A stretch of DNA of 64,000 nucleotides from Terriglobia bacterium (GTDB lineage Bacteria > Acidobacteriota > Terriglobia > Bryobacterales > UBA6623). Position numbers and translations under genes: made by a program. Below, in pieces: positions 56,952 through 63,330 of this stretch (position 1 is the stretch's first letter; every line of letters begins with the position of its first letter). The notes under the pieces are model-generated. The model worked only from the letters and a program-made list of their open reading frames with translations. It was not told where the DNA came from and did not search any database. Location: the NCBI GenBank assembly GCA_009841225.1, contig VXMF01000022.1:124001-188000 (forward strand), in the 5' to 3' direction.

Positions 56952-57827
56952 ATGCGGTTCCGCGGCATTTACGCCCCGCTAGTCACTCCGTTCGACCATC
57001 GAGGGAACATCTACTGGTCCAAGGTCGAGCACAACCTCGCACAGCTCCGCCGAACCCAGCTGTCGGGTTTCCTGGTCTGCGACCGCTGGGGTGAAGGACC
57101 GCTGCTCTCGGCCTCAGAACGGGCCGAGATCTGGCAGCGAGTTGCTACCCTCGCGGGTGCCGACGTGCAAGTGCTGGCCGCGGTCTCCGGATACGGCGTC
57201 ACGCAAGCTCGCGAGGCAGTCGCGGCGGCGGAGGCGGCAGGTTGCGCATGTGCAGTGCTGGATGCCCCGGATGTGAGCGGGATGGCGCCGCACGCCGATG
57301 CTGCGGAACTGTTCTTTCGCGCCGTCGCTGACAAGTCGGCCCTGCCCGTGGTGGTCGAGGCAAGGCTGGGCGGCGCCTCTGGCGCGGCGGCGCAGCAGTT
57401 GGCTTCGCTGGCAGCTCACCCGGCGATTGTCGGAGCGTTGGTAGAGGGCGGCACCGGGGAGGAGATCGAAACCGCCGCGACCATGTGCGGCCCGGACTTT
57501 TCGATCCTTGTGCGCGATCTGGGAGCGACGGTGCGGGGCCTCTCGAGCGGTGCCCGCGCGGCGGTGCTTGCGATTGCCGCCGCCGTGCCGTTCTACGCCC
57601 TGTCGATTGAAGAGGCGATCCGCACGCGCGAGCACGACGCGGCCGCCGACCTAGTCGCGCGCGCACTCGAGCTCGACAGGCTGCTGCACGCGCACGGGGT
57701 ACCGGCTCTCAAGTGCGCCTTGGACTTGCGCAGCTGCTACGGCGGCATCCCGCGGCTGCCCTTGCTGACTGCCCCGCCAGCCACTGTGGCAGCGGTCTCG
57801 GGGGCTCTGGGCGAGCTAGCCAGCTAA
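56952..57827 (+). CDS. DapA-family protein lacking the catalytic lysine
   Basis: A 291-residue member of the dihydrodipicolinate synthase fold; the opening YAPLVTPFDHRGNIYW is diagnostic. The Schiff-base lysine normally found in a VGIKDxSG motif is not present: the matching region reads IVGALVEGGTG. The usual LYN tyrosine is replaced by VEAR. The fold may be kept for binding rather than catalysis. Compare the two other DapA-like proteins in this window, which keep the lysine. Confidence 0.8.
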   Translation: MRFRGIYAPLVTPFDHRGNIYWSKVEHNLAQLRRTQLSGFLVCDRWGEGPLLSASERAEIWQRVATLAGADVQVLAAVSGYGVTQAREAVAAAEAAGCACAVLDAPDVSGMAPHADAAELFFRAVADKSALPVVVEARLGGASGAAAQQLASLAAHPAIVGALVEGGTGEEIETAATMCGPDFSILVRDLGATVRGLSSGARAAVLAIAAAVPFYALSIEEAIRTREHDAAADLVARALELDRLLHAHGVPALKCALDLRSCYGGIPRLPLLTAPPATVAAVSGALGELAS

Positions 57828-58506: not shown

Positions 58507-58950
58507 ATGCGATATGCCTATCCATGCAGGATCGAGCGGGACGAGGACGGCGCGTTCGTCGTTTCCTTCCCGGACGTGGTCGGCGCCAACACCGGCGCTG
58601 ACGACCGTGCCGACGCGTTGGAGCTGGCCGAGGAGGCGCTCTCCGGGGCGCTCGGGATGTACGTCGAAATGCGGGAACCCATCCCTGTTCCGAGCCCCGT
58701 CATGGACGGTCAGGAGGTCGTCGCGGTGGACCCGGTGACGGCGGCCAAGCTGGAACTGTACACCGCGATGCGGGACCGGGGCGTGACCAAGCGCGCGCTA
58801 GCGAAACGGCTGGGGCTGTCTGATACCACCGTGGGTCGCCTGATCGCCCCGAACCGCCGTTCCCGCATCGACCGTATTGGCAAGGCGCTTCGGGCGGTGG
58901 GCCGGGGCCTCGTGGTCGAGGGCCGGACAGACCCCGCTAGCGCGGAATGA
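58507..58950 (+). CDS. hicB: HicB-type antitoxin with helix-turn-helix domain
   Basis: A 147-residue antitoxin. The N-terminal partial-RNase-H-like fold includes FVVSFPDVVGANTG and ALELAEEALS. The C-terminal part has a Cro/C1-type helix-turn-helix (TKRALAKRLGLSDTTVGRL). It follows hicA at once. It is homologous along the whole length to the decayed copy at 43683-44120. It should bind HicA and its own promoter. Confidence 0.86.
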   Translation: MRYAYPCRIERDEDGAFVVSFPDVVGANTGADDRADALELAEEALSGALGMYVEMREPIPVPSPVMDGQEVVAVDPVTAAKLELYTAMRDRGVTKRALAKRLGLSDTTVGRLIAPNRRSRIDRIGKALRAVGRGLVVEGRTDPASAE

Positions 58951-59290: not shown

Positions 59291-60892
59291 CTACGGAAAT
59301 AGCACCTTGTGGTCTGCAGTTTCGGGTTCGATCTCGGCGCGGATTTCGTCGACGAACCGAGGTCCGAACTTCGCGACGAGCGAGAGCACGCAATGGACAC
59401 GCTCCTGTAGGTTCTCGTTCGGGTAGATCCAGTCGGCCAGTCTTGCCGCATGGCGCCCCGCCGTCGAGGCCCGTCGCATGGCTTCTCGCGCCACCTTGCC
59501 GTTAGCCCTCTCCAGCTGGTACTCGATCTTCTTTCGCGACCGCCCGAAGCTCGCCGCCAGCGTAGGATCGAACTCGTGAAGGGCTGCCTCCATCTCTTGG
59601 AGCCGTCCTCCGATCGCAGCTCGGCTCGCCGCAAGCTTGTCATGCAGTGGCGGCGGCACGAGCGAATTCGCGATCAAGCTCTCGAACTCGTGCCTCGGAG
59701 CGATACACTGGGCCACCGTCAGGCCGTACTTCTCCAACAGTTTCCGGCTTGCCGCATCCAGCACCGTAAACGAAGCCCTAGGCAACACGACCGGCATACG
59801 CTCCAGCAATCTGTCGTACAGCACTGCAGATTGCGCGAGGTAAGCCGCTTCGGACGGCCCCGCGATCAGCGCTGCGGTGGGGAGCATGGAGTCCTGCATC
59901 ACGGGTCGCAGCAGCGCGCTCGGCGAGACCTGGAGCGGAGACCCCTCCAGCCGGTGCACGAGATCGTCGGCGCTGTAAGCCCGGGACTCGGACAAGAACG
60001 AGCTGTTCTTGCGCTTGAGGGCGATGCGCTCGGCGCCTTCGAAGAGCATCAGTAGCGATGTCGATTCTTGGACGTAGACCTGCTCGTGGTAGCCGGCGGA
60101 TTTCAGCCCTCCGCCCCTGCGGATCAACGCATCGGCGAGCTCTGGCGCGCGCTTGATCGCGTTGCGCAGCACGGGAACGGTCAGTTGGCGGATCCCCGCC
60201 TCCATCGGCGAGAGAAACAGGATTCCAGTGCGCTCCAGCAATTTGCTGTAGAGCCGCTGAAACCCGCGTCCGAACCCAGCGCCGTCGCCATAGGCGCTCC
60301 GGGCCAGCGCGACCGCCTCGGCTGCGTGCGGCAAGCCCTCGCAGCAGGCCTCGAACTCGCTCAGGCGCGGGTCGGTGATCTTGACCGAACCGACGGCTGT
60401 GCCAGGCGTCCCGGCACTTTGCGCCTCGATTCTCTGCGGGCCGTCCGCAAGCGAGTGCGCCCACGCATGGTTCACTTCCGCGAGGTCGTGGTCTTCGGTC
60501 GCAAGCCAGAAGACCGGCGTGGCGGGAGTGCCGCGGCGCGTCAGCTCTTCGGCGCAACGTACCGCCGTGAGCGCCTTGTAGAGCGTAAACGCCGGGCCGC
60601 CCAGCAAGCCCACTTGCTGGCCCGTGGCCACGACCACCGTGCCAGGTTGGGCCAGCCGATCCAAGCTGGCTTGCACCTCGCCGTCACCATCCCGATTCTG
60701 GCTGGCGAGCGCATCCACCAACGCCTTGCGGTGGTCCGGCTCCAGACGGGCCGTGCTCGCCGCAGCTTGCGCGGCGGCCAGCGACGGCGGGTGGCGGTAG
60801 AACTGGCCAACGCGGGAAAAACTGGAGAGCAAGTCCGCGAACAGCGGCCGGATGCCCGGCAGTTCAGCCTGAGGGAGGGAAACGCTGCGCAT
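59291..60892 (-). CDS. bshC: Bacillithiol biosynthesis cysteine-adding enzyme
   Basis: Catalyses the last step of bacillithiol synthesis, adding cysteine to GlcN-malate. The family marks VVATGQQVGLLGGPAFTLYK and FWLATEDHDLAEV are clear. The length of 533 residues is normal. BshC is known from Firmicutes, Bacteroidetes, Deinococcus and Acidobacteria. It starts five bases after the stop of the upstream D-threonine-aldolase-like gene. The window has no bshA or bshB. Confidence 0.93.
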   Translation of the reverse strand: MRSVSLPQAELPGIRPLFADLLSSFSRVGQFYRHPPSLAAAQAAASTARLEPDHRKALVDALASQNRDGDGEVQASLDRLAQPGTVVVATGQQVGLLGGPAFTLYKALTAVRCAEELTRRGTPATPVFWLATEDHDLAEVNHAWAHSLADGPQRIEAQSAGTPGTAVGSVKITDPRLSEFEACCEGLPHAAEAVALARSAYGDGAGFGRGFQRLYSKLLERTGILFLSPMEAGIRQLTVPVLRNAIKRAPELADALIRRGGGLKSAGYHEQVYVQESTSLLMLFEGAERIALKRKNSSFLSESRAYSADDLVHRLEGSPLQVSPSALLRPVMQDSMLPTAALIAGPSEAAYLAQSAVLYDRLLERMPVVLPRASFTVLDAASRKLLEKYGLTVAQCIAPRHEFESLIANSLVPPPLHDKLAASRAAIGGRLQEMEAALHEFDPTLAASFGRSRKKIEYQLERANGKVAREAMRRASTAGRHAARLADWIYPNENLQERVHCVLSLVAKFGPRFVDEIRAEIEPETADHKVLFP

Positions 60893-62133: not shown

Positions 62134-62418
62134 CAGCGGATTTGCCCCCTGAATATTGATCATAGTCCGACGCGGGACCACGGCACTAGCGCGACCAAGC
62201 CCTCGCCAGTCCTGCCAGCGTTCGATCAAGCAAAAGCACCACATAGGCCGATCAAAATCGATGGCTCACTTCGTGAAACGACAGCTCGGGCTGGCGACGT
62301 CAGCGTCGAGTGCCAAGCCGGCTCAAGCGGCGGAAGCTCGCTGAGCGCGGTGCCGGCCTGCATCCGCCAGGAAGCCTCGGGGCATCGCAAGCGACCGGAT
62401 CAGATAAAATCTCGGTTC

Positions 62419-63330
62419 ATGTCGGCAAAACTGGGCGGATTCGCGGCAGCGTTGCACACGCCGCGTCGAGAGGACGGCTCGATCGACTTTGCGGCGCTCG
62501 CGCGCAATACCGATTGGGTTATTTCACAAGGCGCCAGCGCAGTCGTGCCGTGCGGCGGGACCGGCGAGTACTCCGACCTCACGCTCGGGCAACGGAAAGA
62601 GATCGTCGATCAACTGGCCTGGGTGCCCAAAGCAAAGGCGAAATTGGTGGTCGGCGTCGGCTCGGGCTCGCTGCGGGACTCGGTGGACTTGGCGCGACAC
62701 GCACTGGACAGGGGGTCGGACGCGGTCCTGCTGCCGCCGCCGCACTTCTATCGCTACGAAGCCCGCGACCTGCTGCCCTTCTTCCGCGCCGCGGCCCGGG
62801 CGATCGGCGGCCCGACCATGCTCTACAACCTTGCCGGCTTCGTCAGCCCGCTCGATGCCGAGATCGTCGCCGAGCTGATCAGCACCGAGACGCACCTCAT
62901 CGGCATCAAGGATTCGAGCGGGGGCTTGGAGATCCTGCGGCGACTGACCCAAGCCGGCATTGCCAGCGTGCGAGTGCAAGGCCACGACGCGTGGCTGGCG
63001 GAGTCCTTGCGCCAAGGCTTGGCCGATGCTGCCATCTCCGGCCCGGCCAGCGTGGTGCCAGAAGCCATCCGGGCCGTTTTCGAGACCTTCGGCGACGAGG
63101 ATGCTTTCTCCGCCGCCGCGACGCATTTCGAGCAGTTCTTGCAGCAGCTGATGCGCTTCCCCTACCCTTGGGTGATCAAGTGGGCGGCGCAGTACAGGGG
63201 CCTGGACCCGGTGACTTTCGCAGTCCCGTTGAGCGCCGAGCGAGACCAGGACAGGCAAGCGTTTCTGTCTTGGTTCGAGACATGGCTTGAGAACGGCCCG
63301 CCGACGAGCCCGGACTTTCGCAGGCCTTGA
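62419..63330 (+). CDS. DapA-family aldolase/dehydratase with intact catalytic residues
   Basis: A 303-residue cytoplasmic protein (MSAKLGGFAAALHTP). The catalytic Tyr lies in MLYNLAG, and the Schiff-base Lys in IGIKDSSGG. The GTGE motif (CGGTGEYSDL) is present. It resembles 5-dehydro-4-deoxyglucarate dehydratase more than DapA itself, judging by the phrase GGTGEYSDLT. It lies upstream of an acyl-CoA ligase gene. About 285 bases before it hold nothing recognised. Confidence 0.88.
   Translation: MSAKLGGFAAALHTPRREDGSIDFAALARNTDWVISQGASAVVPCGGTGEYSDLTLGQRKEIVDQLAWVPKAKAKLVVGVGSGSLRDSVDLARHALDRGSDAVLLPPPHFYRYEARDLLPFFRAAARAIGGPTMLYNLAGFVSPLDAEIVAELISTETHLIGIKDSSGGLEILRRLTQAGIASVRVQGHDAWLAESLRQGLADAAISGPASVVPEAIRAVFETFGDEDAFSAAATHFEQFLQQLMRFPYPWVIKWAAQYRGLDPVTFAVPLSAERDQDRQAFLSWFETWLENGPPTSPDFRRP

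Follow-up and report, generated by a model that had tools for sequence, protein, structure and literature searches.

A conserved HOGA/DapA-fold protein without the Schiff-base lysine in a family of Bryobacterales

The closest described relatives of the gene presented here have the DHDPS (DapA) fold. In the excerpts of PMC3188589 that deal with human HOGA1, Lys196 and Tyr168 are essential, roles are given to Ser77, Asn78 and Ser198, and Tyr140, Tyr168 and Lys196 are equated with Tyr107, Tyr133 and Lys161 of E. coli DHDPS. N-acetylneuraminate lyase (NAL) and the KDG-type aldolases and dehydratases share the fold of our protein, which differs from them in having no Schiff-base lysine. A search of the open-licence PMC literature (full text, titles and starts of abstracts) found no description of a DHDPS-family member without this lysine. 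We analysed a 64,000-nucleotide stretch of a Bryobacterales genome (the window) that carries such a gene, referred to below as the Lys-less gene:

56952..57827, + strand: HOGA/DapA-fold protein without the Schiff-base lysine (ORF with a Pfam DHDPS match, in 18/18 family genomes, dN/dS about 0.20)

The DapA fold and the altered active site

The ORF runs from an ATG at 56952 to a stop at 57827 and codes for 291 amino acids. Residues 3-273 match Pfam DHDPS (E 1.7e-18, 66.8 bits against a cut-off of 22.1), which places the protein in the superfamily, whereas the cut-off of the NCBIfam dapA equivalog is missed (60.6 bits against 206.15) and the NAL and KDG-type aldolase/dehydratase models of NCBIfam that match it all score far under their own cut-offs. 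Its best sequence match in the PDB is human HOGA1 (3s5n/3s5o; 81.7 bits, residues 4-280). An AlphaFold model, computed with ten genus relatives alongside the window protein, reaches a mean pLDDT of 72.9; confidence is fair to good in the N-terminal 190 residues but poor at the C-terminal end (below 50 at 252-271 and 281-291). The top Foldseek match of this model is again HOGA1 (E 5.8e-14, TM 0.68, overall rmsd 10.8), which VIA-align superposes with a Z of 22.6 and an rmsd of 3.3 over 227 residues; the top row of VIA-align is NAL 5zjm (Z 24.3, rmsd 5.7, 239 aligned), with two further rows tied within 1. The predicted structure is a DapA-type barrel that matches DapA-fold chains. With the Pfam score, it puts the protein in the DHDPS (DapA) fold family, as a preliminary description made from the letters alone had proposed, and the ORF is a real gene that is conserved among relatives.

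The positions at which the active site is altered, and the C-terminal stretch that is kept, are the following:

57438..57440, + strand: Leu163 codon, in the column of the Schiff-base lysine (HOGA1 Lys196, E. coli DHDPS Lys161), by alignment
57357..57359, + strand: Glu136 codon, in the column of the catalytic tyrosine (HOGA1 Tyr168, E. coli DHDPS Tyr133), by alignment
57084..57089, + strand: Arg45-Trp46 codons, in the GxxGE loop (HOGA1 Ser77-Asn78), where 68/68 Lys-bearing rows have Ser-Thr
57276..57278, + strand: Ser109 codon, at the second tyrosine of the PHYY loop (matched to HOGA1 Tyr140 by motif)
57696..57764, + strand: C-terminal motif G249-L271 (GVPALKCALDLRSCYGGIPRLPL), among the best-kept stretches and common to Lys-bearing orthologues and HOGA1

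Alignment with Lys-bearing orthologues bears out the two losses first claimed for this protein: the lysine column is Leu163, within V-G-A-L-V-E-G-G, and the tyrosine column is Glu136, within V-E-A-R. The losses exceed these two residues, since the middle of the GxxGE loop and the PHYY loop are altered as well, from GSTGE to DRWGE and from PHYY to PDVS. Set against the residues of HOGA1 treated in the excerpted source, Lys196, Tyr168, Ser77, Asn78 and Ser198 are matched by motif to Leu163, Glu136, Arg45, Trp46 and Glu165. Like DHDPS, the window protein retains the GE of the carboxylate-binding GxxGE loop (found in 18/18 family rows), although it differs at the first glycine and the two middle residues, and the Lys, Tyr and Thr columns of the DHDPS active site are all altered. 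The likeness to HOGA1 lies in the C-terminal LK...YGG..R.PL motif and in the lysines at the K24 and K254 columns.

The preliminary description had left room for another lysine placed in the active site, and sequence alignment offers none. The protein has only three lysines, K24, K128 and K254. Both K24 and K254 align with HOGA1 lysines other than the nucleophile and occur in Lys-bearing rows (54/68 and 68/68, respectively) alongside the true one, while K128 is unconserved, so that none of the three is a probable nucleophile. That description had also considered the rest of the barrel well kept, which is overstated. Counting positions conserved in at least 90% of 68 Lys-bearing orthologues, and taking as kept those whose residue is shared by 70% or more of 11 diverse family rows, 38/78 are kept overall (49/78 in 12 rows of the Lys-less genus g8 introduced below), with 24/56 in residues 1-200 and 14/22 in residues 201-291. 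Across the family, the old conserved positions survive best in the C-terminal third (14/22, against 15/30 and 9/26).

Distribution, orthologues and gene order

The gene is present in 11/11 genomes of the genus and 18/18 of the family, and both hallmarks of a class I aldolase, the Schiff-base lysine (0/18) and the proton-relay tyrosine (0/18), are missing from every family row. An identical loss in 18/18 genomes excludes a frameshift, an assembly or sequencing error, or chance. We searched the 18 family genomes for an active copy with a profile built from 12 Lys-bearing orthologues. Each genome gave a single match at 175-267 bits, which was the Lys-less gene, and all other matches scored 140 bits or less; in g13, a genus with no row in the profile, five full-length orthologues with the lysine reached 488-495 bits. 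At the sensitivity of this search no Lys-bearing copy of this orthologue was found in the 18 genomes, two of which are below 90% completeness (G004, 87; G017, 74). The Lys-less gene therefore replaces the active orthologue in the family, at that sensitivity, and is not a paralogue beside a retained active copy.

Outside the family the lysine is the rule. (Here g8, f2, G063, L132 and the like are working codes for genera, families, genomes and loci.) It is present in 68 of the 82 orthologues read, all 68 of which also have the tyrosine, and the retention of both in 16/16 class rows compares with a lysine in 52 of the 66 order rows of the tree set (46 + 20). The 14 Lys-less order rows are 12 of g8, one of g21 (G089) and one of g13 (G063). 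Matches were obtained in 254/257 order genomes and 333/399 class genomes, and residues were read in part of these, mostly at the best-scoring places, so the rows are not a random sample; two class families, f6 and f11, were matched and stand outside the residue counts. The Lys-bearing orthologues resemble 4-hydroxy-2-oxoglutarate aldolase: the profile built from 12 of them scores 263 bits on HOGA1 and 159 on the distinct protein that ranks next, which supports a HOGA-like ancestor.

The genus g8, from another family of the order, belongs to the same orthologous group and is likewise Lys-less: 18/19 genomes have a full-length copy (G034 has a C-terminal piece only) and the lysine is found in 0/18. 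Its 12 tree rows differ from the window protein in retaining Asn137, Pro139, the second tyrosine of PHYY and 21/22 conserved C-terminal positions, and they have in common a pocket pattern of their own, with His in place of the tyrosine in 16/18 copies, Asn after it in 18/18 and Glu after the lysine column in 18/18. As judged from these residues, the g8 pocket looks rebuilt and may be the more promising one in which to look for new chemistry.

The gene order in the genus of the window is FabH, amidohydrolase, TPR protein, the Lys-less gene, BshC and a D-serine-dehydratase-like gene. It is complete in 8/10 loci; of the other two, L038 begins at the Lys-less gene and L042 is without the upstream part. 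In the window, the downstream features are:

59291..60892, − strand: BshC-like gene (Pfam BshC), downstream of the Lys-less gene and convergent to it, a synteny marker
58507-58950: HicB-like antitoxin gene, between the Lys-less gene and BshC
62383-63330: Lys-bearing DapA-family paralogue, downstream with three genes between

BshC is downstream and convergent in 11/11 genus genomes and in 4/7 other family genomes, where it lies behind a small zinc-ribbon gene; it was not found beside the Lys-less gene in the remaining three (G012, G014 and G017), and nothing matched it in the flanks read around Lys-bearing orthologues (1.5 kb; longer for 11 loci). Since the two genes are convergent and BshC was not seen next to the gene in 3/7 genomes or in the flanks read at Lys-bearing loci, we rejected a functional link to bacillithiol and take the association as synteny. 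Flanked by divergent and convergent neighbours, the Lys-less gene is on its own, with no evident partner gene, and the neighbouring genes gave no pathway hint at the loci read.

Several smaller features of these loci were recorded. Among the genus loci, the HicB-like gene occupies its spot in the window and L037 only, and in L036 and L039 the Lys-less gene and BshC are about 25 bases apart. Two loci from other family genera (L075 and L080) have a response regulator with a GGDEF domain just upstream on the same strand and, as in L077 and L079, a zinc-ribbon DUF4870-like gene between the Lys-less gene and BshC. Lys-bearing HOGA-like orthologues (L084-L090, L094) are often beside atpB-atpE (ATP synthase subunits a and c), with atpB-/atpE-like genes, mostly adjoining, at 8/11 Lys-bearing loci with longer flanks (supported by Pfam for one pair).

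Selection and possible roles of the protein

Purifying selection maintains the Lys-less gene, which has a mean dN/dS of about 0.20 over 15 close genus pairs and no stops. The values for its neighbours are 0.13 for BshC (15 pairs), 0.08 for the amidohydrolase (10) and 0.14 for the TPR protein (10), and the Lys-bearing paralogue at 62383-63330 has 0.20 (10 pairs). A dN/dS above that of three neighbours would suit a relic under relaxed selection, heading for loss, as would the long branches of the tree. However, the gene is present and open in 18/18 genomes, its dN/dS is far under 1 and the same as for the Lys-bearing paralogue, and we consider a relic very improbable.

The distribution of constraint along the protein bears on whether the old cavity has been rebuilt, with new residues binding or converting a small molecule, either as a sensor or as an enzyme working without a Schiff base. 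Constraint is indicated to be stronger outside the pocket loops (by a single definition, residues 44-50, 105-111, 134-143, 160-169 and 186-190) than within them: in the Lys-less family, pocket-loop dN is 1.43 times that of the rest, with a bootstrap interval that touches 1 (1.00-2.02; 47/55 pairs, dS <2). The corresponding ratios for Lys-bearing sets are 0.53 (g13), 0.80 (g70; 0.52-1.10), 0.51 (g9), 0.34 (g54/g68) and 0.32 (f7), and g8 has 1.17 (0.80-1.68). The direction of the contrast is clear, not each single set, given the overlapping interval of g70, sets of 4 to 20 pairs and shared branches. Faster loops argue against a rebuilt pocket, as does the variation of the new pocket residues from genus to genus within the family. 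On the other hand, G47-E48 are found throughout the family, and D44, W46, G47 and E48 are invariant in 11/11 own-genus rows, which could mark a new ligand site and weakens a non-catalytic reading. Moreover, dN/dS by thirds in the close genus set is 0.10, 0.31 and 0.19, so that constraint within the genus is strongest in residues 1-100 and the C-terminus is not singled out, and the reshaped pocket of g8 is itself conserved. A rebuilt ligand pocket is possible, more so for g8; for the family of the window, the sensor or other chemistry that the preliminary description had entertained is disfavoured by the loops and the residue differences, and we rate it as unlikely. Less probable again, though a little ahead of the relic, is a regulatory subunit assembling with a Lys-bearing DapA-family paralogue such as that at 62383-63330. 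The excerpts of PMC3188589 describe HOGA1 and DHDPS as tetramers, with a tyrosine from one subunit extending into the site of its neighbour, and a homologue of the paralogue is near the Lys-less gene in 9/10 genus loci. But the paralogue is just 21% identical to the window protein by alignment, the flanks read in other family genera did not show it, and the PHYY tyrosine that would be donated is gone.

The reading we prefer, with about even confidence, is that of a pseudoenzyme: a descendant of a HOGA-like class I aldolase, now non-catalytic, that would work through surface or oligomer contacts outside the old pocket. The Schiff-base residues are absent in 18/18 family genomes with no rescuing lysine in the alignment, and the kept fold, lost catalytic residues and selection on the gene together support the pseudoenzyme that the preliminary description had offered among its options. 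Since the lysine nucleophile and the tyrosine of the proton relay are gone, together with further residues of the pocket, the protein should be unable to make a Schiff base with a keto acid. A job outside the old active site is probable, since the catalytic residues are lost yet the gene is under selection in the family; the protein may act as a scaffold or as a regulatory partner of another protein. Annotation from the DHDPS fold alone would give a label of lysine-biosynthesis or aldolase enzyme, which is unlikely to be right for the window gene.

Number of losses within the order

Phylogenetic trees were built with the pocket motifs left out. The 18 family rows and the 13 Lys-less rows from g8 and g21 form one group (SH-aLRT 91) nested within the Lys-bearing orthologues, a topology that needs two changes of lysine state overall; with a smaller row set and a simpler model, the family and g8/g21 join at an SH-aLRT of 97. 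A tree uniting the other family (f2) without the family of the window is not rejected by the AU test (p 0.39; with f3, 0.44). Grouping by family would favour separate losses, while the long branches present in the tree could favour the join with g8/g21. At least two losses are needed, because that of G063 sits among Lys-bearing rows of its own genus, and from these alignments and trees there were perhaps three.

A tentative extension, somewhat doubtful in our estimate, is that the HOGA-like aldolase of the order had a second, non-catalytic role before the active site was lost. An earlier role of this kind would explain how the lysine and tyrosine could be lost more than once (in the family, in g8 and g21, and in one g13 genome) with the protein kept each time. 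The order offers a natural series, from a Lys-bearing enzyme through a Lys-less protein with a conserved, reshaped pocket to one with a loosely constrained pocket, and it makes testable whether a second role of an aldolase of the DHDPS fold can outlive catalysis.

Two further observations concern the Lys-less orthologues outside the family. The g8 copies (L155-L172) have a G-x-x-E motif at the lysine site as part of their new conserved pocket pattern. The orthologue of G063 (L132/L191), from a genome of 4 contigs, has pocket loops shortened by deletions and groups with Lys-bearing relatives from its own genus.
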